NCBI GenBank assembly: GCA_944388175.1 | Contig: CALXHR010000005.1 | Coordinates: forward strand, 1-64,000 | Reading direction: 5' to 3' | From: an uncultured Gemmiger sp. | Lineage (GTDB): Bacteria > Bacillota > Clostridia > Oscillospirales > Ruminococcaceae | Length of the DNA: 64,000 bases | Part shown: positions 14,346 to 30,420 of the stretch, piece by piece | How the letters are laid out: each line of letters opens with the position of its first letter | Position numbering within the stretch: position 1 is the first letter of the stretch | The notes under the pieces: model-generated | Told to the model about the DNA's origin: nothing | Database searches by the model: none | What the model saw: only the letters and a program-made list of their open reading frames with translations | Program-made: the position numbers and the translations under genes

Positions 14346-16003
14346 GCGCGGTCCCCTCTTTCTTGCCTATGTTTTATATGCCGCAAAACAGCGTACACCA
14401 CGCCCGCCGCCGCCAGCGCATACCCGGCCATATACGGCGTGAGGTAGTACATAAAGTAGGTGTCGGGCGCGGTCAAAAACACCAGCGGGATGCGCGCCGC
14501 CAGCGCGCCGGCGGCAAAAAACAGCATCCACTGCCGGCGCCCCCCCAGCACCACAAGGGCCGCGAACAGCAGCGCAAAGGCGGGCAGCATCCACCAGGTG
14601 GGCAGCAGCGCCCCGCCCAGGAACGCTGTATCATACGAAAGCGCCATAATAAAATCTTCGCGCAGCTGCACATCCAGCGGCCAGGCGCCCGGGCTGGCGG
14701 TCAAAAAGTCCAGGCGGTCCGCCCGTGCGCCGTCCAGCGGGTCAGTATACAGCAGCGTGGTGGAGGCAAACACCAGTTTCTGGTTGGAATCCGTCTGCCC
14801 CTGCACAACCGTATTGCGGAACACGCCCAGGCGTTCCCGCAGCAGCGAACCGGGGTATTTCAGCGCCAGCTGCACAAAGCCCTTTTTGCAGGCGTCCCAG
14901 TCGGCTTCGGTCAGGCCGGTCTCGCTGCGGGTGATGCGGCTGCGCAGCTCCGCCCCGTGCAGGTTGGAATAGTCGCGGCAGGCCTGCACATCAAAGATGC
15001 GGTCGATGCCCGCCAGCGCTTCGGCGTCGGCTTCGGGGTCGGCGTCCTGCACCAATGCGGCCGTCTGGTAGCACAGCGCCACGCGCTGGTACACCCAGGC
15101 GTTCGCCCCCATCAGGCGGTTGTTGGCGCGGCTGCACAGCAGCGTGCCCGCAACAATGACGCCCGCGCACAGCGCCGCCGCGGCCGGCCGCAGCAGCTTT
15201 TTGTGCGCCAGAAACGCCAGCAGCACCGGCAGCGCCGCCAGATAGTAGAGGTTCTCGCCCCGCCAGGCCGCCGTCAGCACGCCCAGCAGCGCAAACAGCG
15301 CCCACTGCTTTTTGCTCAGCGGTTCCCCGCGCAGGTACCACCACACGGCCAGAAACACCGTGAGCAGTTCGCACCAGGTGGCCCATGTGGTGCGGAACGG
15401 CTGCATGTCGTGCAAAAGCACCGGCGGCAGCAAAAACGGCAGGTACAAAAGGGCAAACCACCCGCGCGCCGGGGGCCTGCGCAGCCGCTGCACCGCCAGC
15501 GTTTCGGCCGCCGCCAAAAAGCAGCCCACAATGCCGGCGATGAGCAGCGTCTGCACCAGCACCACGCCGCCGGGCAGCGGCACAAACATCAGGCAGAGGA
15601 TAAACGCCGCGCTCGTCAAAAAGTGCTGCCAGGCCGAGGGTTCCAGCGTGCGGGCGCGCATCAGCACATCGAGGTCGTCGCTGCCCCAGCACCCCGGCCA
15701 CACAAGGGCCAGCACCACCAGCGTCACCGCCAGGTAGGGCAGCGCCCACCGCAGCCAGCACAGCGCAAACAAATCGCGCCGGCGCACTTTTTGCACCAGC
15801 GTGACGGCGCCGTGCACCACGGCCAGCGCCGCCAGAAAGAACAGCGCCTTGTACGCAAAAAAGGCGGGCGTGCGCCAGTCATAGCGGAAAAACAGCCGGT
15901 CGGTGGCCAGCGTCAGCGCGCACCACAGCGCGGCGGCCGCGGCTTCCCACGGCAGGCGGTATCGGTTCAGCGTTTCCATGCGGTGTCCTTCCCGGCGGTT
16001 CAT
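14342..16003 (-). CDS. Polytopic membrane protein, GT-C-type glycosyltransferase candidate
   Basis: About 553 residues with roughly ten to twelve hydrophobic helices. The first large loop contains WPGCWGSDDLDVLMRAR; acidic pairs in this position are characteristic of GT-C enzymes that use polyprenyl-linked sugars. No family can be named with confidence, and a Wzy-like polymerase is an alternative. Two starts are possible: the ATG at 16003, which overlaps the previous stop, or the ATG at 15979, which has an AAGGA site 8 bp upstream. It overlaps the flippase/kinase fusion gene by 4 bp. Confidence 0.6.
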   Translation of the reverse strand: MNRREGHRMETLNRYRLPWEAAAAALWCALTLATDRLFFRYDWRTPAFFAYKALFFLAALAVVHGAVTLVQKVRRRDLFALCWLRWALPYLAVTLVVLALVWPGCWGSDDLDVLMRARTLEPSAWQHFLTSAAFILCLMFVPLPGGVVLVQTLLIAGIVGCFLAAAETLAVQRLRRPPARGWFALLYLPFLLPPVLLHDMQPFRTTWATWCELLTVFLAVWWYLRGEPLSKKQWALFALLGVLTAAWRGENLYYLAALPVLLAFLAHKKLLRPAAAALCAGVIVAGTLLCSRANNRLMGANAWVYQRVALCYQTAALVQDADPEADAEALAGIDRIFDVQACRDYSNLHGAELRSRITRSETGLTEADWDACKKGFVQLALKYPGSLLRERLGVFRNTVVQGQTDSNQKLVFASTTLLYTDPLDGARADRLDFLTASPGAWPLDVQLREDFIMALSYDTAFLGGALLPTWWMLPAFALLFAALVVLGGRRQWMLFFAAGALAARIPLVFLTAPDTYFMYYLTPYMAGYALAAAGVVYAVLRHIKHRQERGDRA

Positions 16004-16752
16004 TCCAGCGCCGCAAAGGCGGCGTCGTTTTGGGGGGCTTCGGCGGCGCGGTACTCGTCCGGCGTGCCAAAGGGCAGGTGCAAATCGGTGGCAAAGCCGC
16101 GCACCGCCGCGCCGTGCTGCGCCAGCACGTTGTAAATGCCCGAGACAAAAAACTCTTTGTACTCGCAGGCGTGCAGGTATTCCGCGCAGGCGGCGGCGTA
16201 GGTCTCTTTGTCTTTAAAATAGTACGCGCCGCAGATGGCATCGCGGCTGACGACCTGTTTTTCCACCGTGCGGCAGACGTTGCCGTCGGCCCCGTATTGC
16301 AGGTAGCTGTACGCCGGCGAATCGCTGGCAAAGGTCAGCAGCGCGCCGGCAGGGCCGTCCGCAAACGCCCCCGCCGCGCAAAACTCGTTGAACGCGCGGC
16401 ACAAAAACAGGTGGTCGCAGTCGTTGAACAGCAGTGGCTCGCCGCCGGGCAGCCCCTCGGCCCCTTTCAGCGCCGTGACGGCGGCCCCGGCCGTGACTTC
16501 CGGCAGGGCGACGATGCGCGCCGCCGGCCAGTAGGCGCGGATCTTTTGGTCGATGGCAAACTCCCGGATATGCTCCTCGAGCACGACAAAGGTCACGTCG
16601 GCGCAGTCGACGAACTTCTCGACGCTGCGCGCCGCCCAGTAGAAAAACGGTTTGCCGTGGATTTCGATCAGCGGTTTGGGGCAGACGAAGCCGTTTTCAA
16701 AAAAGCGGCTGCCGCGCCCGGCCATGGGCAGGATCAGGTGCAGTTTGGGCAT
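16000..16752 (-). CDS. Sugar-phosphate nucleotidyltransferase-like protein
   Basis: 250 residues, single Rossmann-like NTP-transferase domain. The nucleotide-binding start LPMAGRGSRFFENGFVCPKPLIEI contains the G-x-G-x-R-F...K-P signature of this fold, and LLFNDCDHLF supplies the metal-binding aspartates. Such proteins activate a phosphorylated sugar or other head group as an NDP derivative. Its position close to a kinase-like domain suggests a kinase then nucleotidyltransferase pair. The product cannot be predicted. It starts 27 bp after the SDR epimerase gene and overlaps the next gene by 4 bp. Confidence 0.82.
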   Translation of the reverse strand: MPKLHLILPMAGRGSRFFENGFVCPKPLIEIHGKPFFYWAARSVEKFVDCADVTFVVLEEHIREFAIDQKIRAYWPAARIVALPEVTAGAAVTALKGAEGLPGGEPLLFNDCDHLFLCRAFNEFCAAGAFADGPAGALLTFASDSPAYSYLQYGADGNVCRTVEKQVVSRDAICGAYYFKDKETYAAACAEYLHACEYKEFFVSGIYNVLAQHGAAVRGFATDLHLPFGTPDEYRAAEAPQNDAAFAALE

Positions 16753-16779: not shown

Positions 16780-17808
16780 TCAGGCGCGGTCGCGCGCGGC
16801 CAGCATCCTGCATTCGGCTTCGATCACGCGGGCCAGCCCGGTCTCGATATCCACCTGCGGCGTCCAGCCGTAGACCTCGCGCGCGTGGGCGTTGTCGCAC
16901 AGGCTGAACTTGTTGACCTCGTGGTCGAGAATTTCCGGTTTGATGCCGTAGGCCCCGCCGTAGAGTTCGGGGTATTTGGCCCAGTAGTGGCTGGGCGGGC
17001 AGTACTTCGCTTCAATTTCCTTGCCCATCAGGCGGCTGGCCGTGGCGTACAGTTCCCGCACCGAGTAGCTCTGGTTGCTGGAAACATTGACCGCGTCAAA
17101 GCCTTTCTGCGGGCGGTCGACGACGCGCAGCGCCAGCGCGATGAGGTCGTCGACGTAGATGTAATCCCGCCGCTGCTTCCCGTCGGAGTGGAACTCCGGC
17201 ACGCGGTCATAGTACAGCTCGCGGATCATGTACCCCACAAACGGCGGCTGCTTGCGCAGGCAGTCGATGTGCGGGCCGTAGACGTTGGCGAACCGCAGGC
17301 AGGTCACCGTCATGCCGTAGGTGTCGGCAAAACTCTGGCAGAAGCGCTCGCCGCAGTATTTGGTGTTGGGGTAGATCAGCGTCGGCGGGGCAAATTTGCC
17401 CTCCACGGTGGGGAACTCGGTCTCGTTCTCATACATCGCGTTGGTAGACGCCTGCACGAGCTGTTTGACGCCGGTGCGGCGCGCGCATTCCAGCAGGTGC
17501 ACCAGGCCCAGCGTGTTGACCTCGACGGCCTGCACGGGGTCGCTCTGGCAGTCGGGCAGCGGGGCGATGCCGGCAATATTGTAGACGACGTCGAACTTTT
17601 CTTGCTCAAACAGCGCCGGGATGGCCTGCCGGTCGCGGATGTCGATGCGGCGCACCTCGCCGCCGAAATCATGGTCGTCGAATTTCAGGTTGTCGAGGTT
17701 GCCGTAAGAGAAGTTGTCGATGCCCACGACGTCGTCGCCGCGCCGCCACAGCGCGTGCCACAGCTGGCCGCCGATGAACCCGGCGGCGCCCGTTACCAGA
17801 ACTTTCAT
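16780..17808 (-). CDS. NAD-dependent epimerase/dehydratase (extended SDR) for nucleotide sugars
   Basis: 342 residues. The NAD-binding TGAAGFIGGQL is at residue 6, the ASTNAMY and YPNTKYCGE segments supply the S/T and Y-x-x-x-K catalytic residues, and RRDYIYVDDLIALAL is typical of UDP-sugar epimerases. The ATG at 17808 directly precedes the Rossmann strand and has a GGAGGGTCTGGCA leader; the longer frame overlaps the GT2 gene. It likely makes a nucleotide-sugar donor (for example by 4-epimerisation) for the glycosyltransferases in the cluster, but the exact reaction is not determined. Confidence 0.88.
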   Translation of the reverse strand: MKVLVTGAAGFIGGQLWHALWRRGDDVVGIDNFSYGNLDNLKFDDHDFGGEVRRIDIRDRQAIPALFEQEKFDVVYNIAGIAPLPDCQSDPVQAVEVNTLGLVHLLECARRTGVKQLVQASTNAMYENETEFPTVEGKFAPPTLIYPNTKYCGERFCQSFADTYGMTVTCLRFANVYGPHIDCLRKQPPFVGYMIRELYYDRVPEFHSDGKQRRDYIYVDDLIALALRVVDRPQKGFDAVNVSSNQSYSVRELYATASRLMGKEIEAKYCPPSHYWAKYPELYGGAYGIKPEILDHEVNKFSLCDNAHAREVYGWTPQVDIETGLARVIEAECRMLAARDRA

Positions 17809-17821: not shown

Positions 17822-18616
17822 TTATTGTTGCGCGGGGATTTCGGTGTAGGTGTATTCCTCAATGATCTTATCGCGCCATTCGCGCGCCACAAACGCCCGC
17901 GGGCTGCGCAGGTACCGCCCGCAGAGTTTGAGCAAACTGACGCCGAAGCTGGTCAGCTTGTTGTTGCTGACCTGGTCCTCCTCCCGCCAGCTGATGGGGA
18001 AAAACAGGATTTTCTGCTTGAGCTGGCACAGCGCCAAAATCATGCAGTCGTTAAAATACAGCGTGTCGGGGAACTTTTTATAGTAGCCGTTTTGCAGCGG
18101 AGCCACGGCATAGAGGTTGAGCCCGCTGCCCAGGTCGGTGATTTTGCGGCGCGCCACCACGCTGAACAGCGCGTTGAACCCGTAGTTGCCCACGGTGCGC
18201 AGCGCGCTGTACCCCTGGATGCGGCTGCCTTTCATAAAGCGGGAACCCAGGCAGCAGTCGTATTGTTGGTAGACGCCGTTTTCCAGGATCGGCAAAAGGT
18301 CCGCAATGGCGCCCTGGTCGTCGCCATGCAGCACGACCAGATGCGCAAAGCCGTGCGCCGCGGCGTAGCCGAACGCCACCTTGTGGCTGCCGCCGAGGCC
18401 GTAGTTCTGGTCGTTGCGCAACAGATGCACCGGGGCCTCGGGGTGGCGGGCGCGCCAGGCCTGCACGGCGGCCTCGGTGCCGTCGGTGGAACGGTTGTTG
18501 ACGACGATGCACGCGCCCACCCACGGCGCGACGCGGGCGTCCAGCAGCTGGTCCAGCACGCGGGGGACCTGTTTTTCGCAGTTATACGCCGGGATGAACA
18601 CCAGCAGTTTTTCCAT
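17822..18616 (-). CDS. GT2 glycosyltransferase, dolichyl-phosphate-mannosyltransferase-like
   Basis: 264 residues, GT-A fold. Residues 1-10 are MEKLLVFIPA; NNRSTDGTEAAV and the metal motif in VLHGDDQGAI follow, then GSRFMKGSRIQGYSALRTVGN, which resembles polyprenyl-phosphate glycosyltransferases. There is no clear C-terminal membrane helix. It could charge a lipid-phosphate sugar for the GT-C-like membrane proteins next to it. The ATG at 18616 carries GGAGCCGACT upstream. It is separated from the preceding gene by 229 bp with a repeat. Confidence 0.82.
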   Translation of the reverse strand: MEKLLVFIPAYNCEKQVPRVLDQLLDARVAPWVGACIVVNNRSTDGTEAAVQAWRARHPEAPVHLLRNDQNYGLGGSHKVAFGYAAAHGFAHLVVLHGDDQGAIADLLPILENGVYQQYDCCLGSRFMKGSRIQGYSALRTVGNYGFNALFSVVARRKITDLGSGLNLYAVAPLQNGYYKKFPDTLYFNDCMILALCQLKQKILFFPISWREEDQVSNNKLTSFGVSLLKLCGRYLRSPRAFVAREWRDKIIEEYTYTEIPAQQ

Positions 18617-18845: not shown

Positions 18846-20618
18846 TTACCTCCCGGCCGGTTCCCCGGCCCAGCCATCGACGACGAGCACCTGCAAGCTG
18901 GCGGTGCCGTGGGTCACGGTGTAACGGTCGGTTATGGCAAAGTGTTCCTCAATCCAGGCGTGGAATTCCGCCATGTCGCGCACCTCGGCGTCGTTGTACA
19001 GCACGACGTCGGGCAATTTGCCCGGCACGTCGGTGTAATATTGTTCATACCGCGGGTCGCTGTCGGTGCCCGAAATCACCGACGCCTGCGCGACCTCCAG
19101 CGTGCCGTCGTCCATCAGCCAGGCAAGGCCGTGCGGCTCGCCGATGGCCTGCAGCACCTTTTGCCCGGCGTAGGGGGCCAGCGCTTCATACAGGCATTGC
19201 TGCATGTCGGCGGCGGTCTCGTCGGCCCAGACGCCTTGGGCCGGGCCGTCCCCGATGCGCACCAGCGCCGTGTCCCCCGGCGTGCCGGCCCGCCAGCCGG
19301 TCATCTGCACCAGCCACAGCCGCGCCGCCGCCGGGCAGAGCAGCAGCACTGCCAGCACCGCCAGCACCCCGGTGTGCACGCGCGGCGCGCGGCGGCGCAG
19401 CGCCAGCGCCGCCGCGCCGCACCACGCCGGCCAGAACAGATACATAAAGGTGGTGGGCAGGGCGATGAGCGTCGAGCGCAGGATCATCAGGTAGGCGGCC
19501 ACCCCCGGCAGCCACCCCAGCCAGAACAGTACGGCGCGCGCCGCGCCGCCCTGCGCGCAGCGGCGGTCCAGCCAAAAGGTGCAGCCGCCGGCCACCGTCG
19601 CCGCCAGGTAGAGGTGGCGGCAGTCCAGCGCGGCGTCCGCCAGCGCAAACTGCGCGCAGCGCACGCTCATGCAGGCGGTGAACAGCCACAACAGCGCTTC
19701 CACCGCGCGCGGCACCCCGGAGCGGCGGCGCCACAGCCACACCGCCCACAACGCCAGCGCCGCCAGCAGCGGCCAGAACGCGAATCGGGCCGCCGTCAGC
19801 GCCTGGCCCGCCAGCACCGCCAGCCGCTGGGCGGCGGTAAAATTGTACTGCGGGTCGTGCAATACCAGGGCGATGCGCGCCGCCAGCGCCGGCAGGTCAA
19901 ACCCCATGCCCGCGCACACCCACAGCAAAAACGCGCCGCCGCACACAGCGCAGCCGCCCGCAAACGCCAGCGCGCCGCGCGGCAGCGGGCCCACGCGAGC
20001 TTCGCCCCCGCGGCGCCCCAGCAGGACCATGCCCAGCCACAGCACCGGCGCGGCCGCCACGCTTTGCGGGTAGGCCAAAAAGCTCAGGCAGGCGCACACC
20101 GCCCCCGCCGCCACGCGCCACAGCCCGCGGTACTGGCGCGCCCCGGGCGCATAGTAGCCGTACCAGCACAAAAACGCCGCCAGCGTGTAGTGGAACTGCT
20201 GGCTGGTATAATCCGGCCCCAAAAACCACTTGGGCGTGAACAAAAACACCCCCAACGCCGCCAGATACGCGGCGGGGCGGCCCAGCGCCCCGCGCAGGCT
20301 GCGGTAACACCAGACGCCCAGCCCCGCCTTGGCCGCCAGCGTCACGCCGCGCACAAACAGCAGCACGCCGGTGGTGCCGCCCGAAAGCGCCCTAAACAGC
20401 GCGATGAGCGGCGCGGTGGTCAGCGCGCTGAGCTGGTGCGGCTCCCACATCTGGGCAAACAGGCGGTCGCCGCTTACCAGCCGGTACCCCAGCGACAGCG
20501 CGTATTGTTCGTCGATCTCCAGCCCGGTGTACAGCGTGCGCGCCATGGCCGCGGCGGCCGCCAGCGCCAGCACGGCCGCCAACGCGTACCCGGCAGCGGT
20601 TTTGTGTTTGCGGTTCAA
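18846..20618 (-). CDS. Large polytopic membrane protein, GT-C glycosyltransferase-like
   Basis: 590 residues with about eleven to thirteen membrane helices and a soluble C-terminal tail of about 120 residues. The first extracellular loop reads YTGLEIDEQYALSLGYRL and continues with WEPHQLSA, an acidic pair plus downstream His pattern as in GT39-like enzymes. I place the start at TTG 20618 (TTGA overlap with the upstream stop) because a GGGAAGGGGG ribosome site precedes it and no in-frame ATG gives the first membrane helix. A sugar transferase using a polyprenyl-phosphate donor is likely; a polymerase is possible. Confidence 0.68.
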   Translation of the reverse strand: MNRKHKTAAGYALAAVLALAAAAAMARTLYTGLEIDEQYALSLGYRLVSGDRLFAQMWEPHQLSALTTAPLIALFRALSGGTTGVLLFVRGVTLAAKAGLGVWCYRSLRGALGRPAAYLAALGVFLFTPKWFLGPDYTSQQFHYTLAAFLCWYGYYAPGARQYRGLWRVAAGAVCACLSFLAYPQSVAAAPVLWLGMVLLGRRGGEARVGPLPRGALAFAGGCAVCGGAFLLWVCAGMGFDLPALAARIALVLHDPQYNFTAAQRLAVLAGQALTAARFAFWPLLAALALWAVWLWRRRSGVPRAVEALLWLFTACMSVRCAQFALADAALDCRHLYLAATVAGGCTFWLDRRCAQGGAARAVLFWLGWLPGVAAYLMILRSTLIALPTTFMYLFWPAWCGAAALALRRRAPRVHTGVLAVLAVLLLCPAAARLWLVQMTGWRAGTPGDTALVRIGDGPAQGVWADETAADMQQCLYEALAPYAGQKVLQAIGEPHGLAWLMDDGTLEVAQASVISGTDSDPRYEQYYTDVPGKLPDVVLYNDAEVRDMAEFHAWIEEHFAITDRYTVTHGTASLQVLVVDGWAGEPAGR

Positions 20619-21481
20619 CGGGCGGCCCCCTTCCCGGCATGCTGCGGCGGGTCCACCCGGCGGCGCAGCAGCGCGTCGCGCGCACGCCACAGGTAGGGCA
20701 GCCAGTTCAGGCAAAAGGCTTCCCACTTGCGCTGCAGCCAGGTCTGGGGTTTTGCCGCCCCCCTGACGGCCGCAACGTCGATGTACCGCGCCTTTTGCAC
20801 CACGCGGATCGCTTCGTGCCCGGTGGGCGTTTCCTCCGGCGTGCAGTAGTCCGGCCCCAGGATGCGGAACCGCTGCGGGCATTCGGCTACCAGCCGGTTG
20901 AGCTGGCTCTCGTCATGGAACCGCGCAATCACCCCGCGGGCCAGGTCCTCGTTGGTGCGGGCTTTGAGCTCCCGGCACAGGGCCAGGTAGGCCGCCGCCG
21001 TGCCGCCGTTGAGCCCGCCCGCCACGTAATACCGCCCGCAGTTGTACGGGATGCCGGCGCGGCTCTGGCGGCGGCGCTCATAGGGGTGAAACAGCGGGTC
21101 TTTGCCGTAGTAGGGCAGGTGGCACACCGCCACCAATTCCTGGCCGGCGGCGGGGTCGGGCAGCAGCTCGGCCGCCGGGATATCCCGCATACAGCGCAGG
21201 TTGGCGTTGGCAAAAAACAGGTAGTCGTACCCGGCCAGCCGGTCCGCCTGGCCCAAAAACGCGTCAAAGCGCTGCATTGTGCTGTAGGGCCAGGGCAGCG
21301 CGGTCTGCGGGATGCGCACAACGTCGGGCGCGTCCTCATAGTCGATGCGTTCGGCGTCGGTGAACACAAAGAACGTCCGCGCGCAGTCCGGCAGGAAATG
21401 CGCTTTGAAATTGGGGTAAAAGTCGTGCCAAAAGACCCGGTAAGCCCCTGTGCACAGGTACAGCACCGCAACGGTAGGCAT
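20615..21481 (-). CDS. GT6-family glycosyltransferase (ABO blood-group transferase-like)
   Basis: 288 residues, retaining GT-A enzyme. The family core is FVFTDAERI, then LPWPYSTMQRFDAFL and YDYLFFANANLR at residues 86-96. In bacterial GT6 members the metal-binding DxD of the animal enzymes is replaced by NxN; here it is NAN at 92-94. GGLNGGTAAAYLALC and HDESQLNRL are further family-specific blocks. Known GT6 enzymes add alpha-1,3-linked Gal or GalNAc, often to a fucosylated galactose. A GT11 gene lies four genes upstream in the same operon. Donor (Gal or GalNAc) cannot be told from sequence. Confidence 0.88.
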   Translation of the reverse strand: MPTVAVLYLCTGAYRVFWHDFYPNFKAHFLPDCARTFFVFTDAERIDYEDAPDVVRIPQTALPWPYSTMQRFDAFLGQADRLAGYDYLFFANANLRCMRDIPAAELLPDPAAGQELVAVCHLPYYGKDPLFHPYERRRQSRAGIPYNCGRYYVAGGLNGGTAAAYLALCRELKARTNEDLARGVIARFHDESQLNRLVAECPQRFRILGPDYCTPEETPTGHEAIRVVQKARYIDVAAVRGAAKPQTWLQRKWEAFCLNWLPYLWRARDALLRRRVDPPQHAGKGAAR

Positions 21482-21482
21482 T

Positions 21483-23015
21483 TTACGCGCTCCTTTTGTG
21501 TGTAAGTTTGCGCCAGACCCCGGCCGCGTACTGCCGCAGGTAGGCGGCGTCGCCGCCCCAGCCGTAGACGGCCAGGTTGAGGGCGTTGGGCACCACCAGC
21601 ACCAGCACGGCGCGCGGGGCCAGCCCCAGCCAGCCGCCCAGCGGCACCAGCGCGCAGGCCGCGTAGGTCAGCCCCAGGCAGGCCGCCAGCGTGACCAGGT
21701 GCAGCGCCTGCACGCGCAGGTAATGCCCCAGGCTGCCCTGCATATACTGCCGGAACACCACCCGGATGCGCCCCGCCCACATGATGCCGTGGGCGATGAC
21801 GGTGGCCGCCAGCGCGCCGGTGATATCCCACAGCGGGAACAGCGCAAAACTCAGCGCCAGGTTGACGGCGGCCGACGCCACCATGAACCACTGGTCCTGC
21901 TCAAAATGGCCCAGCACCGCGCGGTAGGACCCCAGCATGCGGTGGTTCCAGCCGATGTATTCGTTCAAACAGAACACCAGCACAAAGCTCATGGGCAGCA
22001 GCCACTGCTCGCCCATCCAGGCCGCCATAAAGGGCTGGAACAGGCAGAAATACGCCGTGGCCACAAAGCTGGCGAACAGGTAGCTGAACAGGTCCATGCC
22101 CCAGAACACCTGCTTGTCGTGGGCGTTGGCGGCGGCCGTTTTGTCGTAGACGATGTTGCCGATGGCCGCGGCAAAGCTGTCCATGATTTTGTTGCCGAGG
22201 TCGGTGGCACTGGTGGAGATGTTGGTGTAGTTGCCCAGGTGCGTCGTCTGGACCGAGCCGCCCATGCGCGCCGTGACGATGGTGTCGGACGAGCCGTAGA
22301 TTGTGTTGGACAGCCGGTGTACAAGGTAATACCGCAGGTCGTGGAAGATGCCCAGCTCTTTAAAATCGCGCAGCGTGACCTTGACGTCCTTAACATAGGG
22401 GAAATCTTTGTTGAACCGCCGCGCAATGACGAGGTTGGCGCAGACGTTGCAGACGATGGCGGTGCTGAAATACAGCACATAGTTGGGCCACCACAGCGAG
22501 ACGGCGATTTTGGCCAGCGAGGTGAGGACGTTGAAGCAGAAATCGATGCGCGTGCACAGGTACCCCTGCTGGGTGCAGGTGTACATCAGCCGCCGGGTGA
22601 CCAGAAAGTAGCTGCACAGCGTCGAAACAACGTTGAGCGCGTACACCGTGTACGCCGTGGCCGCCGGCACGTCGGGCATGATCCACGGCAGGGCGGCCGC
22701 GCCCAGCAGCGCCAGCACGGCGATGGCCAGGCCCACGGCGCGGTAGGCCCACTTGTACATCGACATGTATTTGCTGATTTTTTCTTCATTTTGGGCGGCG
22801 ATCTGCGCGTAGAGACGGTAGCTGATGACGCTGCCGACGCCGAACTCGGCAATGGAGAAAAAGTTGAACAGCTGGGTGACGACCTGCGACGCCGTGCTGA
22901 TCTGCGCGCCGAAATTGTAGACGAGCAGACGCCGGGTGACCAGCCCCAGCAGCAACAGCAGCAGGCTGGACCCCAGCGCGTAGGCCATATTCAACAACGT
23001 ACGTTTGGTTCGCAA
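21483..23015 (-). CDS. Wzx-type oligosaccharide flippase (MOP superfamily)
   Basis: 510 residues with about 12 to 14 membrane helices; the start RTKRTLLNMAYALGSSLLLLLLGLVTRRLL is typical of polysaccharide-export flippases. It should move the undecaprenyl-PP-linked repeat unit across the membrane. The best start is TTG at 23015, with AAGGA 8 bases upstream in the end of the GT2 gene; the next ATG at 22987 would remove the conserved basic start. Three residues before the stop come LTHKRSA. It is followed after 1 bp by the GT6 gene. Confidence 0.88.
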   Translation of the reverse strand: MRTKRTLLNMAYALGSSLLLLLLGLVTRRLLVYNFGAQISTASQVVTQLFNFFSIAEFGVGSVISYRLYAQIAAQNEEKISKYMSMYKWAYRAVGLAIAVLALLGAAALPWIMPDVPAATAYTVYALNVVSTLCSYFLVTRRLMYTCTQQGYLCTRIDFCFNVLTSLAKIAVSLWWPNYVLYFSTAIVCNVCANLVIARRFNKDFPYVKDVKVTLRDFKELGIFHDLRYYLVHRLSNTIYGSSDTIVTARMGGSVQTTHLGNYTNISTSATDLGNKIMDSFAAAIGNIVYDKTAAANAHDKQVFWGMDLFSYLFASFVATAYFCLFQPFMAAWMGEQWLLPMSFVLVFCLNEYIGWNHRMLGSYRAVLGHFEQDQWFMVASAAVNLALSFALFPLWDITGALAATVIAHGIMWAGRIRVVFRQYMQGSLGHYLRVQALHLVTLAACLGLTYAACALVPLGGWLGLAPRAVLVLVVPNALNLAVYGWGGDAAYLRQYAAGVWRKLTHKRSA

Positions 23016-23020
23016 AATGG

Positions 23021-24019
23021 TTATCCTTTCTTGCAGGCGGCGGCCAGCCACAGCGTCAGCCGCGGCCCCAGCAGGCGCATCATCGCCTGGAAAGCCCGCC
23101 AGTCGCGGCGGGTGCGCACTTGCGTCCCGCGGGCGTACAGCGGGCGCAGCTGCCGCAGGTACGGCAGGCAGGCGCGGCGCACCGTGGCGTCGCGCACGGC
23201 GGCCGTGCGCGCCTGCGGCCAAAACACATCGGCGGCGGCGTCCTGCATGGCGGTGTAGGCAGCCGCATCAGCCCCGCCGCTGGCGGCCAGCGCGGCCAGC
23301 CGCCGCTGGGCGGCCACCAGCGCCGCAAAGCGCCGGGGCAGGTTTTGGGCGTCGGTCAGCAAGCTGCCGGGGCGCCCCACACGGTAGTGGATGAACACGA
23401 CGTCCAAAAAGTACAGCCGCTCGCAGCAGGTCAGCGCCCACAGGTCAAAGGGCCAGTCCTCGGCCCAGCGCACGTCGGTCCAAAAGCGCAGCCGGTTTTG
23501 CCGCAGCCAGGCGCGGCGCATACAGTATTTCCATACCGACCAGTGCCCCGCCGTGTACAAAGCGCGCAGCCGCGCGGCGTAGTCGGCGCTGGCAAAGGGG
23601 CCGGGGCGCAGCGCCAGGCCGGGGTGTTCGGCCAGCGTGCCGTCGGGCTGCCACTCTAAATGTCTGCCAATGTACCAGTCGTACCCCGGGTGGGCGGCCA
23701 GTTCCCGCCGCAGCGCCGCCAGCAGCCCGGGGGCCATGGCGTCGTCGCTGTCCAGAAACAGCACCCAGTCGCCGGCGGCGGCTTTCAGGCCGGTGTTGCG
23801 CGCGGCGGCCAGCCCGCCGTTTTTGCGGTGGATCACCTGAAAACCGGGGATTTCGGCCGCAAAGGCGTCGCACAGCTGCGGGCTGGCGTCGGTGGAACCG
23901 TCGTCGACGAGGATACACTCCCAGTCTTTGGGGCCGGGCTGCTCGGCCACGCTCTTGACGCAGGCCGCCAGGTAGTTCTGCACATTGTACACCGGCACGA
24001 TGATGGAAAACATCGGCAT
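23021..24019 (-). CDS. GT2 family glycosyltransferase
   Basis: 332 residues. GT-A motifs are FSIIVPVYNVQNYL at the start, LVDDGSTDASPQLCDAF, NGGLAAARNTGL, and the DxD-type LFLDSDDAM. The C-terminal half (AEDWPFDLWALTCCERLYFLD) matches the WcaA-like group of exopolysaccharide transferases. An AAAGGAGG site precedes the ATG at 24019. It likely adds one sugar of the repeat unit on the cytoplasmic side. Confidence 0.88.
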   Translation of the reverse strand: MPMFSIIVPVYNVQNYLAACVKSVAEQPGPKDWECILVDDGSTDASPQLCDAFAAEIPGFQVIHRKNGGLAAARNTGLKAAAGDWVLFLDSDDAMAPGLLAALRRELAAHPGYDWYIGRHLEWQPDGTLAEHPGLALRPGPFASADYAARLRALYTAGHWSVWKYCMRRAWLRQNRLRFWTDVRWAEDWPFDLWALTCCERLYFLDVVFIHYRVGRPGSLLTDAQNLPRRFAALVAAQRRLAALAASGGADAAAYTAMQDAAADVFWPQARTAAVRDATVRRACLPYLRQLRPLYARGTQVRTRRDWRAFQAMMRLLGPRLTLWLAAACKKG

Positions 24020-24041
24020 GGCGGGGCCTCCTTTCGGCGTT

Positions 24042-24959
24042 TTACTTCGTTTCCACCAGCTGCCAGTGCGGCTGGTACAGCGCCGTGTGCTTGGTGTGGG
24101 CGTACCAGCGGTCGGGCGCCCACACGGCATCGGCCGCCGGGGCCAGGTACTGCGCCCACCAGCTGTAGGTGGAGTTGCTCAGGATAAACCCGCGGCAGCG
24201 CTGCATCAGCGCCAGGTCGGCCACGGCGTCGCCGCGCGGCACAAACTGCGCGGGCAGGCCGGCGGTGTCCAGGTTGGCGCGCGCCCAGTCCACATCGTCA
24301 GAGAACACGAACACCGTTGCGTCGGGCCGCGCGGCCTTGACCGCCGCCGCCGCGCGCGCGTAGTACGCCGGCGTGCACACCTGTAAAATCTCGTTTTCGG
24401 GCTTGGCATAGTCGCCGCGGCGCAGGTGCAGCGCCACCGGCCACGCCGCGGCGTCGATGGCCGCCGCCCACGGCCCCGCGGGCGGCTGTTTGGCGCGCAG
24501 TTCGCGCCGGATGGTACCGGCACAGTCGGCAAAATACCCTTCTGCCTGGAAATACCCCCACGCCAGAAAATCCCGCGCGGGGCCGCGGCGCGCCGGGGTG
24601 TAGCCGTCGGTGGCAAAGTGCAGCCCCAGCAGGTTCAGCACAGGGGCGCAGCGCGCTTCCCACCCGTGCCAGTCCCGCGCCAGCAGGCCGCGGCGCTGCT
24701 CGTACTTAATCATCAGCGCCTTGGCGGCGTTCTGCCGCGGCAGGTGCCGTTTGGCAAAGCCCGGCTCGGCCAGAATGCGCACCTCCGGCGCAAGGTTCAG
24801 CGCGCCCAGCGCGCAGACGGTGTGGGCGGGCGCGCCGTCGCGCCAGTCCTGCCGGTCCAGCAGGGTGACGCCCTCGCCGCAGCGCAGGCCCAGCGCCCGC
24901 GCAAAGGCGTAGATAAACATCTGGTTGCCCAGGCCCCCGGCCAGTTCGGCGTAGATCAT
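24042..24959 (-). CDS. GT11 alpha-1,2-fucosyltransferase-like protein
   Basis: 305 residues. GT11 hallmarks are the start ELAGGLGNQMFIYAFARAL, motif HLRRGDY at 178-184 (HxRRxDY, GDP-fucose binding), VFSDDVDWAR, and FILSNSTYSWWAQYL. Family members transfer L-fucose to the 2-position of galactose, giving H-antigen-like ends. The gene overlaps the upstream GT4 by 4 bp. No GDP-fucose biosynthesis gene (gmd, fcl or fkp) is in the window, so the donor must be made elsewhere or the donor differs. Confidence 0.88.
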   Translation of the reverse strand: MIYAELAGGLGNQMFIYAFARALGLRCGEGVTLLDRQDWRDGAPAHTVCALGALNLAPEVRILAEPGFAKRHLPRQNAAKALMIKYEQRRGLLARDWHGWEARCAPVLNLLGLHFATDGYTPARRGPARDFLAWGYFQAEGYFADCAGTIRRELRAKQPPAGPWAAAIDAAAWPVALHLRRGDYAKPENEILQVCTPAYYARAAAAVKAARPDATVFVFSDDVDWARANLDTAGLPAQFVPRGDAVADLALMQRCRGFILSNSTYSWWAQYLAPAADAVWAPDRWYAHTKHTALYQPHWQLVETK

Positions 24960-26062
24960 CGCGCGCCCCCCAGTTCGTCGTACAGCTGTTCCATGCGGCG
25001 GGCAGCCGCGCCCAGCTCATACCCGGCAGCGGCCAGCTGCGCCCAGTGGTCGGCGTGGGCTCCCTGCCCCGCAATGCGCTGCGCCGTGGCGGCCCACACG
25101 GCCAGCGGGGCGTCCAGCGGCAGAAAATGCACCAGCTCGGTCACCGCGCCGTCGTCTGGCACATTGGCCGAGGCCAGGCACGGCACGCCGCAGCCCTGGG
25201 CTTCCACCAGCGTGACGGGGCTGCCCTCAAAGTTGCTGGGCAGCAAAAACACATCGAACGCGTTCATAAACGCCGGCACGTCGTCCTGCACGCCGGCAAA
25301 CAGCACGCGGTCCTGCAGCCCCTGCGCCTGCACGGCGGCGCGCACCTCGGCTTCCATCTCGCCGGTGCCCACCAGCAGCAGTTTCCACGCCGGGTCCTGC
25401 GCGGCCAGCGCCGCAAAGACATCCAACAGGAACAGCGGGTTTTTCTGGTGGTTGATGCGCCCCACAAACCCGGCCAGGCGGTCGGTTTCGGCCACGCCGT
25501 ACCGCGCGCGCACGGCGGCGCGGGCTGCCGCGTCGGGGTGGAAGCGGCTCTGGTCCACGGCGTTGCAGGCCACGGCAAAATTGGGTTTCTGGTCGATGTG
25601 CGCGCCAAACACAAAGCGCCCGGCCGCCACACCGCACCCCAGGAAATAATCGGCAAAGCACTGGTAGACCAGATGCGCGGCGTGCCAGGCCAGCGTCAGG
25701 GGTGGGTAGACGATGTGGCTGTGCACGATGATTTTGGCGTGCGGGCACAGCGCGCGCATCATGCCGCACACCGGCGCGCCGATTTTGCTGGCGGTGTGGT
25801 AGTGGATGATATCGTAGTCCTTGTGGGCGCGCAGGTGGGCCCACAGCGCGCGGATGCGGTCCTTTTTATGGTCGGGCACCGCAAGGATCTGCACGCCCGC
25901 GGCCTGCAGCGCGGGGGCGGTGCTGGCCTGGTCCGGCGGGCACTGCCCCACGAACAGGTCGACCTGGTAGCGCACCAGGTCCAGGTGCAGCAGCAGGTTT
26001 TGCACATAGCGCTGCACGCCGCTTTGCACGCCCAAATGGTTGCTAATCATCAAAATGCGCAT
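24956..26062 (-). CDS. GT4 family glycosyltransferase
   Basis: 368 residues, GT-B fold. The N-terminal domain starts MRILMISNHLGVQSGVQRYV; the C-terminal domain has GFVGRINHQKNPLFLLDVF and the EX7E-type donor motif EGSPVTLVEAQGCGVPCLAS. It is close to the group of capsular transferases that includes EpsF-like proteins. The ATG at 26062 has GAAAGGGCCCC upstream; a longer frame overlaps the previous gene. It overlaps the GT11 gene by 4 bp. Confidence 0.88.
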   Translation of the reverse strand: MRILMISNHLGVQSGVQRYVQNLLLHLDLVRYQVDLFVGQCPPDQASTAPALQAAGVQILAVPDHKKDRIRALWAHLRAHKDYDIIHYHTASKIGAPVCGMMRALCPHAKIIVHSHIVYPPLTLAWHAAHLVYQCFADYFLGCGVAAGRFVFGAHIDQKPNFAVACNAVDQSRFHPDAAARAAVRARYGVAETDRLAGFVGRINHQKNPLFLLDVFAALAAQDPAWKLLLVGTGEMEAEVRAAVQAQGLQDRVLFAGVQDDVPAFMNAFDVFLLPSNFEGSPVTLVEAQGCGVPCLASANVPDDGAVTELVHFLPLDAPLAVWAATAQRIAGQGAHADHWAQLAAAGYELGAAARRMEQLYDELGGAR

Positions 26063-26085: not shown

Positions 26086-26988
26086 TTACCAGTAGCTGCC
26101 GCCCTCGACGGCTTCGCGGTGGGCGACGCCCTCGCTCTCGGCGGGGCGCACCCAGGCGTCGTTGTACAGTTTGCTGATGACGGGGTGGTCGTCCCACCGT
26201 TTGCCCCGTATGCCGAACAGCAGCTGCGTCGCGCCGCTCATCTGCACGGCCACGTGGCCGGTGTCCCGCGCGTGGGCAGCCAGCGGCAGGCCGTAGGCCC
26301 CCGCGCCGATGATGGCCACCTCGTAGTCGGCCGCGTCCATCTGGCGCTGCATGGCCGCCAGCGCGTCGAACCAGCTGGCGTAGCCGGTCTCCTGCCCGGC
26401 CAGGCCCTGCACGGCGGGCACGACCGTCAGCGACGCGAACGCCGGCAGGATATCCCGCCCGGGGAAAAGCTGTTCCCGCCGGGCGTACTGGCGCAGGATC
26501 GTCTCGCGGAAGGGGTGCACCACCAGCACTTTTTTGCCCGCCATCGCCGCGCTCCAGGGCTGTGCATGGTAGTAGGGTTCCAGCGCGCGCAGCCGGGTGA
26601 ACTGCGTGCCGCGGCAGCCGCGGATGACCTCGCGCTCGGCCCCGACGTCCCACAGCGCCAGCAGGTCGGCGCTGTGCGCGCAGTCGACATACAGCCGGCA
26701 AAAGCGCGCCAGCGTATCGTCGTCAGTGGGGAACACGCCGGACAGCGTGCGGATGTCCTGCCGCGTTTTTTCGGCAAAGGTGCCGCCGCGCAGCCAGTCG
26801 GCCACGGTGCGCATCTCGGTCGCGCCGCAGCGGCCGAACAGGTACGGCCCACCCCGCAGCACGGCGCGGCGTACCAGGTCGTTGCCGGCGGCGGCGTCCA
26901 GCACCGGCACGCCGCGGTATTTCCAGCCAAAGCGCGCGCCTTTGTACAGGTTGCGCGCCGCTTCCAGCAGGGCGTTGTCGTTATCCAT
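26086..26988 (-). CDS. GT-D-like (DUF1792-like) glycosyltransferase candidate
   Basis: 300 residues. The block PYLFGRCGATEMRTV resembles the nucleotide/metal motif RFGDGE of GT-D enzymes, with the acidic residue kept; the C-terminal VAIIGAGAYGLPLAAHARDTGHVAVQMSG resembles the end of that family. Similarity is distant, so the family call is tentative. The ATG at 26988 overlaps the previous stop by 8 bp and has AAGGGGGCCGC upstream. Its place between two GT4 genes supports a sugar-transfer role. Confidence 0.55.
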   Translation of the reverse strand: MDNDNALLEAARNLYKGARFGWKYRGVPVLDAAAGNDLVRRAVLRGGPYLFGRCGATEMRTVADWLRGGTFAEKTRQDIRTLSGVFPTDDDTLARFCRLYVDCAHSADLLALWDVGAEREVIRGCRGTQFTRLRALEPYYHAQPWSAAMAGKKVLVVHPFRETILRQYARREQLFPGRDILPAFASLTVVPAVQGLAGQETGYASWFDALAAMQRQMDAADYEVAIIGAGAYGLPLAAHARDTGHVAVQMSGATQLLFGIRGKRWDDHPVISKLYNDAWVRPAESEGVAHREAVEGGSYW

Positions 26989-28093
26989 GCGCGGCCCCCT
27001 TGCCTTGCAGCAGCGCCAGCGCGGTCTCGGCGCTGTTCTGCCACAGAAAATGCTCATTGATGCGTTTTTGCGCCGCCGCGCCCATGGCGTCGTCGACGCG
27101 GTCCAGCGCGGCGGCCATCTGCGCGACGGTATCGCACAAAAAGCCGCTGACGCCGTCCTCTATAATCAGGTCCGGCCCCGGCGCGTGGCGCGCCACCGGC
27201 GGGCAGCCGGCGTACATCGCTTCCAGCAAACTCATGCCGAAAATCTCGCCGTCGTTTAAGTTGACGAAGGCGTCGCAGGCGTGGTAGTAGGCGTGCACGG
27301 CCTGGTTGGCCAGCTGCGGGATCAACCGGCAGCGCCCCAGCAGGCCGTTTTGCGCCAGCGCGGCGCGCAGCGCAGCGCCTTGCGCGCCCTGCCCGATGAC
27401 GACGGCCTGCCACCCCGGCGCGGCCTGCAGCAGCGGCACGAGGTCCAGCGGGCGCTTGTAGGCGTCCAGCCGGCCCACAAAGGCGAAGATTTTGGCCTGC
27501 GGGTCCAGCCCCAGCGCGCCGCGCAGCTGCGCGCGCCCGGCGGGGAGATCGGGGATGATGGCGGTGTCCAGCCCCACGGGCATCAGCCCGGCGCACCGCA
27601 CGCCCAGGGCTTGCAGCTCGGCCGCGGCGGCCGGCGTTTTGGCGTAGGTGGGCGTTTTTTGGTAGACCGCCAGGTTGCGCCGCAGCAAAAGGTCCATGAC
27701 GGCGCGCACCGCCGCGCGCGGCGACGTGCTTTTGAGCGCGCCGACCTGGCTGTAAAACAGGATGCCGTGCCGCCGGCAAAAGCGGTACAACCCCGGCACG
27801 CCGGGGGAATTATCGCCCATGACGTGCACGGCGTCGACGTGTTCGGCCCGCAGCACCTGCCAGCTTTTGTAAAATGCCTGCGACCCCAGCGCCCACGCCG
27901 GCAGCGTGTAGATGCGCACGTTGGGTTCGGGGTCCTCGACCACAGGGGCGGCGGCGCCCGGCGCCGGGTACAGCACGACGGCGCGCGCGCCCAGCGCGGC
28001 GAACGCTCGCGCCAGGCCCACCTCCTGCCGGTTATACATCCCCTTTTGGCCGGACGGTCCGCAGTAAAACTGCGGGATCGCAATGGTTTTCAT
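26981..28093 (-). CDS. GT4 family glycosyltransferase
   Basis: 370 residues. GT-B organisation: KGMYNRQEVGLARAF near the start, then FAFVGRLDAYKRPLDLVPLL and the EX7E-type motif DGEIFGMSLLEAMYAGCPPVA. Donor and acceptor unknown. It lies 21 bp after the beta-propeller gene, and its end overlaps the GT-D-like gene. Confidence 0.87.
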   Translation of the reverse strand: MKTIAIPQFYCGPSGQKGMYNRQEVGLARAFAALGARAVVLYPAPGAAAPVVEDPEPNVRIYTLPAWALGSQAFYKSWQVLRAEHVDAVHVMGDNSPGVPGLYRFCRRHGILFYSQVGALKSTSPRAAVRAVMDLLLRRNLAVYQKTPTYAKTPAAAAELQALGVRCAGLMPVGLDTAIIPDLPAGRAQLRGALGLDPQAKIFAFVGRLDAYKRPLDLVPLLQAAPGWQAVVIGQGAQGAALRAALAQNGLLGRCRLIPQLANQAVHAYYHACDAFVNLNDGEIFGMSLLEAMYAGCPPVARHAPGPDLIIEDGVSGFLCDTVAQMAAALDRVDDAMGAAAQKRINEHFLWQNSAETALALLQGKGAAHG

Positions 28094-28114: not shown

Positions 28115-29110
28115 TTATCCTTGCTGCCCGCCGGGCGCGGCGGGCGTTTTGGGCAGTTTGGTCAGGTACCGCGCGTCGATGACTTCCAGCACGTCGTCGC
28201 GGCAGTAGGTGTGCACGCCGACGATATCTTTTTCGTCCAGCCCCGCAATGCACAGGTGCTGCGGCATCGCCGCGCAAAGCGGCACTTCCGAGTGGCCGCG
28301 CTGCGCCAGAAATTGCAGGTAGACGCCGTAGTCCACCGTGGTGCTGACCTGCGTGGGGTGCACGGTCTGCCCGCCCAGCGCAAACAGCGCCCCGGCGTTG
28401 CGGCTGGTCAAATCAAACGCACGGTGCTGCAGGTTGAACGCTTCGTCAGGCAGCAGTTCAAACGGCCCTTCGGGCGGCGGCGGTTCGGTGCCGGGCAGCG
28501 GCGCGGCCGCGGCGGCGCGGCGCAGCGTATAGCGCCGCCAGCGCACGTACAGCTGGTTTTGGGGGCGCGTCTCGCTGCCCAGCAGCGTCAGCGTGCCGGG
28601 GGTTTGGTCCAGCAGGATGGTATCGCACAGTTCGGCCCCCACGTCAAACCGCTGCGCCAGTTCCCATTCCCCGGGAAACGCCCGGCAGCGGTACAGCCGC
28701 AGGCTGTGGTCGGCCCCGCTCTCAGGGATCATCCAGGTTTCGCCGTCCCAGTCGAACACCAGCGGGAACGAGAGGTGGAAATCTTCCTCCAGCACCGGCT
28801 GCCACGGCCCGGCCGTGCCGTCGTCGTACAGTTCGCACGCTTCAATATGGCCTTTGCCGGCAGCAAGGTCCATCGCTTCGGCAAACAGCCAGCGCGCGCC
28901 GCCGCGGCGGTAGAGCATCGGGTCGGCAAACCAGGCCCCGGCCCGCCCCGGCAGCTGCGTGTAGGGCGCGGCGCCCAGCGCGGGCAGCGGCGCGGCGCCC
29001 TCCGCCGGCGGGATGCGCCGCACGGCGATGGTATAGACTTCTTTTTCGCCCGTCAGTTTGCGCAGCAGCCGCCCGGGCGGCATGTGCAGGGCGCGGTACA
29101 GTTGGTTCAT
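28115..29110 (-). CDS. Beta-propeller protein of the GINT1 N-terminal-domain type
   Basis: 331 residues. Repeated blades carry the FADPMLYRRGGARWLFAE, KGHIEACELYDDG, FHLSFPLVFDWDGETWMIPES and LYRCRAFPGEWEL pattern found in the N-terminal domain of glucosamine inositolphosphorylceramide transferase-like proteins and in some bacterial formyltransferase-linked proteins. These look like glycan-handling five-bladed propellers, close in fold to GH32/43/68. No catalytic glycosidase triad can be asserted. The gene overlaps the GT4 at 29107 by 4 bp. It could be a transferase or an accessory domain. Confidence 0.65.
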   Translation of the reverse strand: MNQLYRALHMPPGRLLRKLTGEKEVYTIAVRRIPPAEGAAPLPALGAAPYTQLPGRAGAWFADPMLYRRGGARWLFAEAMDLAAGKGHIEACELYDDGTAGPWQPVLEEDFHLSFPLVFDWDGETWMIPESGADHSLRLYRCRAFPGEWELAQRFDVGAELCDTILLDQTPGTLTLLGSETRPQNQLYVRWRRYTLRRAAAAAPLPGTEPPPPEGPFELLPDEAFNLQHRAFDLTSRNAGALFALGGQTVHPTQVSTTVDYGVYLQFLAQRGHSEVPLCAAMPQHLCIAGLDEKDIVGVHTYCRDDVLEVIDARYLTKLPKTPAAPGGQQG

Positions 29111-30270
29111 GGCGTTTCCCCGGTATACAGGCGCAGCAAGGCGCGGTAGTTTTCTTCTTCGGTATAGGTGCGGCGCGCGGCGGCGGCAATGGCCGCGCAG
29201 TCAAAGGCCATGGCTTCCAGCGCGCGCACGGCTCCGGCCAGCGCGGCGGCGTTGCCGGGGGCAAAGCGCAGCCCGTCGATGCCGGGGCGCACGGCCGCGC
29301 CCACGTTGCCCAGGTCGCTGGCCAGCACCGGCGTGCCCAGCATGTGGGCTTCGGCCGGGGTCAGGGCAAAACTCTCGTAACACAGGCTGGCGGCCACCAC
29401 GGCGCGGCTTTCGGCCATCAGGCGGTGCAGTTGTGCCGGCGGCAGCTGGCCCAGAAACCGCACGTTCGGCCCGGCGTGCTGCCGCGCCCAGGGCCCCAGC
29501 GGGCCGTCGCCCGCCACCAGCAGCAGCGGGGCGTCGGGGCCCAGCAGCGCCCAGGCTTCCAGCACGGTGCGCAGGCCCTTGAGTTCCTCCAGCCGGGCGG
29601 CGAACACAAACTGGCGTTTGCGCTCCTGCCAGGGCGTCGCCGGGGCGGCCGGTACGGCCACCGGGTTGGGTTTGACGACAAGGCGCGCGGCGTCGAACAT
29701 CGGCCGCAGCGCGTTGAACGCCAGCAGTTTCTGGCGGTCAAATTCCGTCGGGGCGGTCAGCGTGACGCCGCGCCAGGTGCCCAGGCGGCGGTGCAGCGCG
29801 TAGGCCAGCGCCACCACGGCGGTCTGCGCCAGGCTGCCGCGGTAGCAGCGGTGGCGCACGGCGCACCACAGCCCGCGGCGGGGGCAGTCCTCGCAGACGG
29901 TCTGGCCGCGCAGCAAAATGCCGTTGGGGCAGAACAGCCGGAAATTGTGCAGCGTCTGCACCACCGGCACGCCGCTTTGTTTGGCGGCGCGCACCACTGC
30001 GGGGCTGAGCAGCAGCAGCGTGTTGTGGATGTGCACGGCTTCGACGCCCTCGCGCATAATAAGCGCGCGCACCTCGCGCGCGGCGCGGCGGTTCCACACG
30101 GCGTGCAGCGGCAGCAGCAGCCTGGCAAGGCCGTGGGCGGCTTCCTCGTTGCTGCGCTCATAGGTCAGCACGGTGTGGCCGTGGCGCTGCAGCAGCGCGC
30201 GCTCGGCGGCAAAGACGGCGTCCTCGCCGCCGGGCAGGCGGTAATGGCAATGGATCAGCAGGATCTTCAA
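29107..30270 (-). CDS. GT4 family glycosyltransferase, first gene of the glycan operon
   Basis: 387 residues. The start MKILLIHCHYRLPGGEDAVF is typical of exopolysaccharide GT4 enzymes; VQTLHNFRLFCPNG, then a cysteine-rich insert (CEDCPRRGLWCAVRHRCYRG), a FAARLEELKG block and the EX7E motif ESFALTPAEAHMLGTPVLAS follow. The cysteines could bind zinc, as in other members with this insert. An AAGGAGG site precedes the ATG, 43 bp below the promoter -10. Confidence 0.87.
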   Translation of the reverse strand: MKILLIHCHYRLPGGEDAVFAAERALLQRHGHTVLTYERSNEEAAHGLARLLLPLHAVWNRRAAREVRALIMREGVEAVHIHNTLLLLSPAVVRAAKQSGVPVVQTLHNFRLFCPNGILLRGQTVCEDCPRRGLWCAVRHRCYRGSLAQTAVVALAYALHRRLGTWRGVTLTAPTEFDRQKLLAFNALRPMFDAARLVVKPNPVAVPAAPATPWQERKRQFVFAARLEELKGLRTVLEAWALLGPDAPLLLVAGDGPLGPWARQHAGPNVRFLGQLPPAQLHRLMAESRAVVAASLCYESFALTPAEAHMLGTPVLASDLGNVGAAVRPGIDGLRFAPGNAAALAGAVRALEAMAFDCAAIAAAARRTYTEEENYRALLRLYTGETP

Positions 30271-30391: not shown

Positions 30392-30420
30392 TGCCGCAGC
30401 GGCAGGTGCAGCGGCCGGCT

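Follow-up and report, generated by a model that had tools for sequence, protein, structure and literature searches.

Can a Gram-positive gut bacterium present a blood-group-like end on its surface glycan? The question is raised by a stretch of 64,000 nucleotides (the window, meaning this whole stretch) from an uncultured Gemmiger sp. (assembly GCA_944388175.1, contig CALXHR010000005.1, positions 1 to 64,000), in which a member of glycosyltransferase family 6 (GT6) and a member of family 11 (GT11) are encoded within one glycan cluster. Judged from the encoded proteins, we consider it moderately probable that GT11 and then GT6 build a blood-group-A-like end on a surface glycan in Gemmiger. The genus belongs to the Clostridia (Oscillospiraceae), and this placement within the Bacillota bears out the Gram-positive gut host that the initial annotation of the window had assumed. 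The genome from which the window derives counts 1.75 Mb on 14 contigs and is 69% complete. The two enzymes are encoded as follows:

20615..21481, minus strand: GT6 enzyme, predicted ABO-type alpha-1,3-N-acetylgalactosamine (GalNAc) transferase of the NXN class (predicted metal-independent), PF03414
24042..24959, minus strand: GT11 enzyme, predicted alpha-1,2-fucosyltransferase, PF01531 (E 1.3e-25), HLRRGDY at residues 178-184, AlphaFold2 predicted local distance difference test (pLDDT) score of 92

The GT6 enzyme and its predicted donor

The GT6 enzyme of the window counts 288 residues and matches the Pfam family PF03414 with 64.3 bits (E 1.1e-17; gathering cut-off 25). Its top match in the PDB is BoGT6a (4ayj, E 3.8e-40), with which it shares 37% identity across aligned residues, and its model superposes on BoGT6a at a root-mean-square deviation of 1.2 A across 230 residues, displaying the GT-A fold of ABO and BoGT6a. 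The NAN motif occupies residues 92-94, and the agreement of profile match, model and motif position confirms the enzyme as it was first annotated. The alignment showed that Y13, W66, R73, N95, N97, H122, A155-G156-G157, H190, D191 and E192 of BoGT6a are all conserved; the catalytic Glu (E192) corresponds to E191 in the window enzyme, and K231 to K230. The substrate contacts of these residues in BoGT6a have been described (PMC3961637). The protein combines a DXD/NXN-type motif and the catalytic Glu with a sufficient PF03414 score and a Leu/Ala-Gly-Gly-type tripeptide. Its score for the Gltr_6 subfamily in NCBIfam (NF041524; 222.6 bits, E 4.7e-66) is below the cut-off of 250 bits, and it is not assigned to that subfamily.

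The donor tripeptide at the sites 155-157 (BoGT6a numbering, as for all sites below) is Ala-Gly-Gly and the residue at site 122 is a His. A human A transferase carrying Ala-Gly-Gly was shown to have full A activity and zero B activity (PMC6351642). Because Ala-Gly-Gly is an A-transferase tripeptide, the product of the window enzyme is predicted to be A-like and not B-like; of the transfer of either galactose or GalNAc originally suggested, this argues for the latter and disfavors the former. The C-termini of the Gemmiger GT6 proteins carry a helical tail of around 40 residues beyond the region that aligns with BoGT6a (window 20615-20750, minus strand), which is possibly involved in membrane association.

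The GT11 enzyme and the supply of GDP-fucose

The GT11 enzyme counts 305 residues and matches PF01531 with 90.7 bits (gathering cut-off 23.9). Its HLRRGDY sequence fits the HxRRxD motif, which we take to be the GT11 signature, and together with the profile match the position of this motif upholds the earlier assignment. The closest structural matches of the AlphaFold2 model are fucosyltransferases, and the model has the fucosyltransferase-type GT-B fold, while a sequence search of the PDB with the protein gave no match. Neither PF03414 nor PF01531 had a match in any of 14 control genomes.

Away from the cluster, the genome of the window has gmd, fcl and a manC-like gene side by side, which score 517, 482 and 194 bits where the cut-offs are 415, 500 and 373, respectively, and given their presence the host is likely to synthesize GDP-fucose. 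A strong fcl match was found in 27 of the 35 genomes of the genus (26 full, 1 partial), namely in 27/30 with GT11 and in 0/5 without (Fisher p 1.7e-4, computed as if the genomes were independent of each other, although those of related species are not). Similarly, gmd scored above its cut-off in 27/35 genomes, comprising 26/30 with GT11 and 1/5 without.

Distribution across the genus and beyond

The genes directly around the GT6 gene, which serve to compare the loci, are:

23021..24019, minus strand: GT2 glycosyltransferase, PF00535 (E 2.2e-36)
21483..23036, minus strand: polytopic membrane protein, flippase-like, start codon uncertain, directly precedes GT6 in related loci
18846..20618, minus strand: polytopic membrane protein, GT6-adjacent, recognized in 19/32 other loci, largely co-exchanged with GT6 between some species

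Only the first two of these separate GT6 from GT11, which had been described as lying four genes apart. The label Wzx-type flippase for the second is presumed from resemblance and unconfirmed.

GT6 was recovered in 29/35 and GT11 in 30/35 Gemmiger genomes, and each of them in 18 of the 19 genomes with a completeness of 90% or more and a contamination of 5% or less. The five genomes without GT11, one of which (G309) is 99% complete, also lack GT6, the flippase-like gene and a strong fcl match. The sole genome with GT11 only is G307, whose contig stops inside the flippase-like gene. GT11, the flippase-like gene and GT6 follow one another in this order in the window as well as in 27 of the 32 other loci; the remaining five are explained by contigs that break off, by an additional GT6 or by a GT6 that lacks the cluster. 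The region past GT6 is less constant, as reflected in the recognition of the adjacent membrane protein, and the GT2 gene that precedes the flippase-like gene is absent or relocated in two loci (G323, G325). Close relatives of the window GT6 are found in Candidatus Gemmiger excrementipullorum (94% identity) and Gemmiger formicilis (83% for An723, 79% for ATCC 27749).

Outside the genus GT6 is rare. It was found in 6/297 genomes of the family (five Gemmiger, one other) and in 2/391 genomes of the class (the window's own and one other), where both surveys represent even draws of genomes and not every species. In the protein searches, the best 120 of 206 matches were considered for GT6 and the best 120 of 436, among 7998 candidates scored, for GT11; with 4237 member sequences, the largest GT6 cluster among the 120 listed has the His122/Ala-Gly-Gly form. 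The reading as a lone gene newly acquired by the window strain was rejected, as GT6 occurs genus-wide. An import of a Bacteroides-type gene into this strain was likewise rejected: the 14 sampled Gemmiger locus rows constitute one group (Shimodaira-Hasegawa-like approximate likelihood-ratio test, SH-aLRT, 97), located beside the second GT6 of the genus, and the 23 sampled BoGT6a-like rows stand apart from it in the tree.

This second, distant GT6 (37-44% identity) is found elsewhere in some Gemmiger genomes (L010, L016, L017, L018, L019, L021, L022, L023). It carries His122 and Cys-Gly-Gly in 8/8 cases and forms a separate clade. One copy (L081 context) has genes for an ABC transporter ATPase and for a TupA-like ATP-grasp protein nearby. 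In a different genus of the same family (G242), a GT6 match (L011) contains two in-frame TGA codons and Phe-Gly-Ala at 155-157, and stands beside a protein distantly related to the flippase-like one.

Alternative GT6 forms in one slot and their exchange

Within the 29 genomes that have an in-cluster GT6, the enzyme occurs as His122/Ala-Gly-Gly (His/AGG, 13 genomes), Gln122/Ser-Gly-Gly (Gln/SGG, 15) or Asp122/Glu-Gly-Gly (Asp/EGG, 1). The same forms were observed among the best 120 of 206 public GT6 relatives (74, 42 and 3, respectively, and 1 incomplete). Among the best 120 of 1355 BoGT6a-like proteins Gln122 occurred once, and according to the alignment the alpha-1,3-galactosyltransferase 2vxl has a Gln at this site as well. 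The His/AGG form consists of two subgroups. One comprises the window and 7 near relatives, with 72-94% identity to the window GT6, and the other has 5 members that are 54-56% identical and thus as distant from the window enzyme as the Gln form (51-57%). Gemmiger formicilis ATCC 27749, which we take to be the type strain, carries the His/AGG form. In the G323 assembly the in-cluster GT6 is of the His/AGG form and a separate contig bears a further GT6 of the Gln/SGG form (L110, L111), which the 3% contamination of this assembly could explain.

The exchange between species involves a block that spans the GT6 gene and the larger part of the membrane-protein gene beside it. When mapped on a tree built from four cassette proteins of 28 of the 29 genomes (G317, with a cluster split on two contigs, was omitted), the forms require seven changes, versus a minimum of three and a mean of 11.6 for shuffled labels; considering that seven is fewer than the shuffled mean, descent also contributes. 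Opposite forms occur in the sister groups G303/G308 (SH-aLRT 100) and G326/[G318, G220] (97). The tree of GT6 places the rows with His/AGG and those with Asp in one group (100/99) and does not resolve the Gln rows as a single group. The GT6 data reject the clades G303+G308 (p 9e-5) and G326+G318+G220 (p 2e-52), and the cassette data reject a His/AGG clade of 8 rows (p 4e-111) as well as the extension of this clade by the other subgroup and the Asp row (p 3e-4), where the p-values are indicative as the groups were chosen after the alignments had been seen.

Each of the four upstream proteins examined recovers G303+G308 as a group (96-100, with 12 rows in the tree of the flippase-like protein), and for G326+G318+G220 the upstream protein GTD groups at 93 and GT4c and GT11 do not reject the clade (p 0.64 and 0.34, respectively). 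Data from the membrane protein that follows GT6 reject both clades. Of four proteins further downstream, compared for G326, G318 and G220 only, three do not reject the grouping (p 0.07-0.23) and one groups at 93. The DNA identity between G326 and G220 is 71-94% upstream, drops to 56-73% over GT6 and the greater part of the gene that follows, and returns to 78-98% beyond, whereas the control pair G318/G220, which has one form, shows 91-100% throughout. For G303/G308 the DNA comparison covers the upstream flank, as G303 has its downstream genes at another place. The two genes of the block can also separate, since in G297 and G323 the GT6 is of the His/AGG form but the membrane protein clusters with those of the Gln genomes.

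Many of the genomes are fragmented, G323 seems to hold both types at 3% contamination, and a distant second GT6 exists in the genus, all of which could be taken to mean that the apparent exchange is a matter of mis-assembly or paralog confusion. We regard this as very improbable, considering that the single-contig genomes G326 and G220 show the exchanged block with both flanks, that opposite types are also found in G303/G308, and that the second, distant GT6 branches off in a clade of its own. The two GT6 forms would, we infer, make different glycans. One slot in a genus-wide cluster could then alternate between an A-type (His122, Ala-Gly-Gly) and a Gln122/Ser-Gly-Gly GT6 in an ABO-like system, swapped by recombination together with much of the neighbor gene, such that commensals of close kinship would present one host with differing blood-group-like antigens. 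We put this forward tentatively, as a possibility that leaves somewhat more room for doubt than for belief.

The proposed product and its rivals

The A-like end would come about as follows. A glycan unit would be assembled on a polyprenyl carrier by GT4 and GT2 enzymes of the cluster, after which GT11 would add a fucose, likely alpha-1,2, to a galactose. GT6 would then add GalNAc, likely alpha-1,3, to the fucosylated galactose, using UDP-GalNAc without a metal and creating a cap or a branch, and the flippase-like protein would move the glycan unit outward.

The main rival holds that GT11 and GT6 act on different sugars, which would result in a fucose and an alpha-1,3 GalNAc or galactose branch elsewhere in the repeat unit and no A-antigen. 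In the alignment with BoGT6a the catalytic and donor residues are conserved, but T134, W189 and N69 are replaced by Pro, Phe and Ser. W189 is conserved in 112/120 and T134 in 81/120 BoGT6a-like proteins (best 120 of 1355), and as these acceptor-side residues are usually kept and have changed here, the acceptor pocket of the window enzyme differs from that of BoGT6a. In addition, HhFT2 demonstrates that a GT11 enzyme can form another linkage, in that case alpha-1,3 (PMC4202792). Moreover, the Gln at site 122 in 15/29 genomes is shared with 2vxl, a galactosyltransferase that is not known to need fucose. Nevertheless, GT6 and GT11 are present or absent together, save for the one case at a contig end, and the window form retains the His of BoGT6a and human ABO, enzymes that act on the H acceptor. 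An action on different sugars thus seems unlikely, though it is to be taken seriously. We consider a B-like end, made by the window GT6 from UDP-galactose, to be improbable. The bacterial GT6 WbnI of E. coli O86 does make B (PMC4202792) and the cluster encodes an epimerase of the GalE superfamily, but the residues at 155-157 are Ala-Gly-Gly and not Met-Gly-Ala or His-Ala-Ala, and BoGT6a, the nearest solved relative, uses UDP-GalNAc.

Several further observations weigh against the proposed A-like end. The diphosphate-binding R243 of BoGT6a falls outside the alignable region of the window GT6. Ala-Gly-Gly is the commonest tripeptide of the NXN class (75/120 among the best 120 of 1355 BoGT6a-like proteins), and within this class it is only a tentative discriminator of galactose and GalNAc; neither WbnI nor BgtA, sought as a control for this distinction, was named among the same best 120. 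The human enzyme with Ala-Gly-Gly also acquired some Forssman activity (PMC6351642). With respect to the rest of the pathway, the flippase-like protein (21483-23036) had no profile match in Pfam, NCBIfam or the PDB, and no polymerase or initiating transferase was recognized in the subset of window proteins that was scanned. With respect to GDP-fucose, gmd scored above its cut-off in G321 and a gmd fragment was found in G320, both of which lack GT11, no strong gmd or fcl match was found in the GT11-bearing G298, G299 and G322 (93, 82 and 89% complete, respectively), and no genome of the genus reached the 500-bit cut-off for fcl.

Relation to known systems

A- and B-like antigens made by bacterial GT6 enzymes are already known from E. 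coli O86 and Helicobacter mustelae (PMC4202792) and in connection with BoGT6a (PMC3961637). The Gemmiger enzyme resembles BoGT6a of Bacteroides ovatus (PDB 4AYJ, 4CJ8; PMC3961637) in family, NXN motif, catalytic Glu, His122 and Ala-Gly-Gly, and differs from it in T134P, W189F, N69S, the C-terminal tail, the Bacillota host and its own clade in the sampled tree. With E. coli O86 (WbnI as GT6, WbwK as GT11; PMC4202792) it has in common that GT6 and GT11 occur in one surface-glycan pathway, with a predicted H-based A/B-type end. E. coli O86 is Gram-negative with a B-type product, whereas Gemmiger belongs to the Clostridia and carries the donor signature of an A-type enzyme; among the proteins scanned no polymerase was recognized. 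Helicobacter mustelae is Gram-negative as well. Its BgtA is likewise a bacterial GT6 and makes blood group A (PMC4202792). The human ABO transferases (GTA/GTB) employ DXD and a metal, unlike the NXN enzyme of the window; furthermore, the Gln/SGG forms of Gemmiger are only 51-57% identical to the window enzyme, and species exchange the different forms along with a portion of an adjacent gene. A gut survey of bacterial alpha-1,3-galactosyltransferases placed its enzyme in family GT8 (PMC6970434).

As far as the open-licence literature shows, to which few subscription papers belong, three features are new: the host genus within the Clostridia, the presence in the majority of its species, and the exchanged ABO- or serotype-like GT6 slot. 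A paper from 2014 states that, one exception aside, bacterial GT6 came from Gram-negative species (PMC3961637). In the available part of a 2026 human genome-wide association study with ABO associations, a text term search found no mention of Gemmiger (PMC12987725), on which account we propose no connection with the ABO type of the host. Most species of this Clostridia gut genus carry GT6 and GT11, usually with the genes for GDP-fucose. The inducers of natural anti-A/B antibodies are often discussed via E. coli O86 and other Gram-negatives. As Gemmiger formicilis ATCC 27749 has the His/AGG form, testing with lectins and antibodies is directly feasible, and the exchanged forms provide pairs of related species that are expected to differ at a blood-group-like position, which would make ABO-dependent effects testable.

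Layout of the glycan cluster

The cluster consists of 15 genes, all on the minus strand, running from 30270 down to 12402, and in this respect the early description of GT6 and GT11 as members of a shared cluster stands. Neighboring genes overlap or are at most 27 nucleotides apart, with the exception of a gap of 229 nucleotides (18846 to 18616), because of which there may be two transcription units. The single strand, the tight gaps, the one stop per frame and the syntenic orthologs rule out chance or mis-called reading frames. Apart from the five genes given above, the cluster and its upstream border comprise:

30363..30392, minus strand: terminator-like hairpin upstream of the first cluster gene, 13 pairs of which 11 G-C, with a T run (pattern scan, consensus match only)
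29107..30270, minus strand: GT4-like glycosyltransferase, first cluster gene, PF00534/PF13692, recognized in 26/32 other loci
28115..29110, minus strand: GINT1_N-domain protein, PF24793 (E 1.9e-19)
26981..28093, minus strand: GT4-like glycosyltransferase, PF00534 (E 5.2e-24)
26086..26988, minus strand: GT-D-like protein, weak, PF22882 (E 0.0057, under cut-off)
24956..26062, minus strand: GT4-like glycosyltransferase, PF00534 (E 1.2e-25)
17822..18616, minus strand: GT2 glycosyltransferase, perhaps polyprenyl-phosphate dependent, PF00535 (E 9.5e-13; weak PpgS match, 26 bits versus 370)
16780..17808, minus strand: NAD-dependent sugar-nucleotide epimerase/dehydratase, PF01370 (E 5.5e-51; GalE model 121 bits, under the cut-off of 262)
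16000..16752, minus strand: nucleotidyltransferase, PF12804 (E 1.2e-6)
14342..15979, minus strand: polytopic membrane protein, no Pfam match, recognized in 5/32 other loci
12402..14345, minus strand: fusion of LPG_synthase_TM (PF03706, E 3.3e-16) and an APH kinase-like domain (PF01636, E 4e-6)

The GT6-adjacent membrane protein (18846-20618) resembles GT-C enzymes in a motif, but Pfam and the PDB gave no usable match. Neither a polymerase nor a GT-C label found support for it: the PDB matches of its profile were antibody light chains (E 0.12 and worse), and 1 of 17 members touched PMT_2 (E 8.6). The nucleotidyltransferase and the LPG_synthase_TM/APH fusion at the end of the cluster (12402-16752, minus strand) may add a phosphorylated decoration. 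The cluster adjoins genes for a ROK kinase, glycoside hydrolases of families GH3 and GH20 and two ABC permeases (30421-36081 and 43830-45936, minus strand), which suggests a locus for the uptake and breakdown of hexosaminides. Finally, a GIY-YIG domain and a GNAT acetyltransferase domain are fused in a single frame at 10084-10986 (minus strand).

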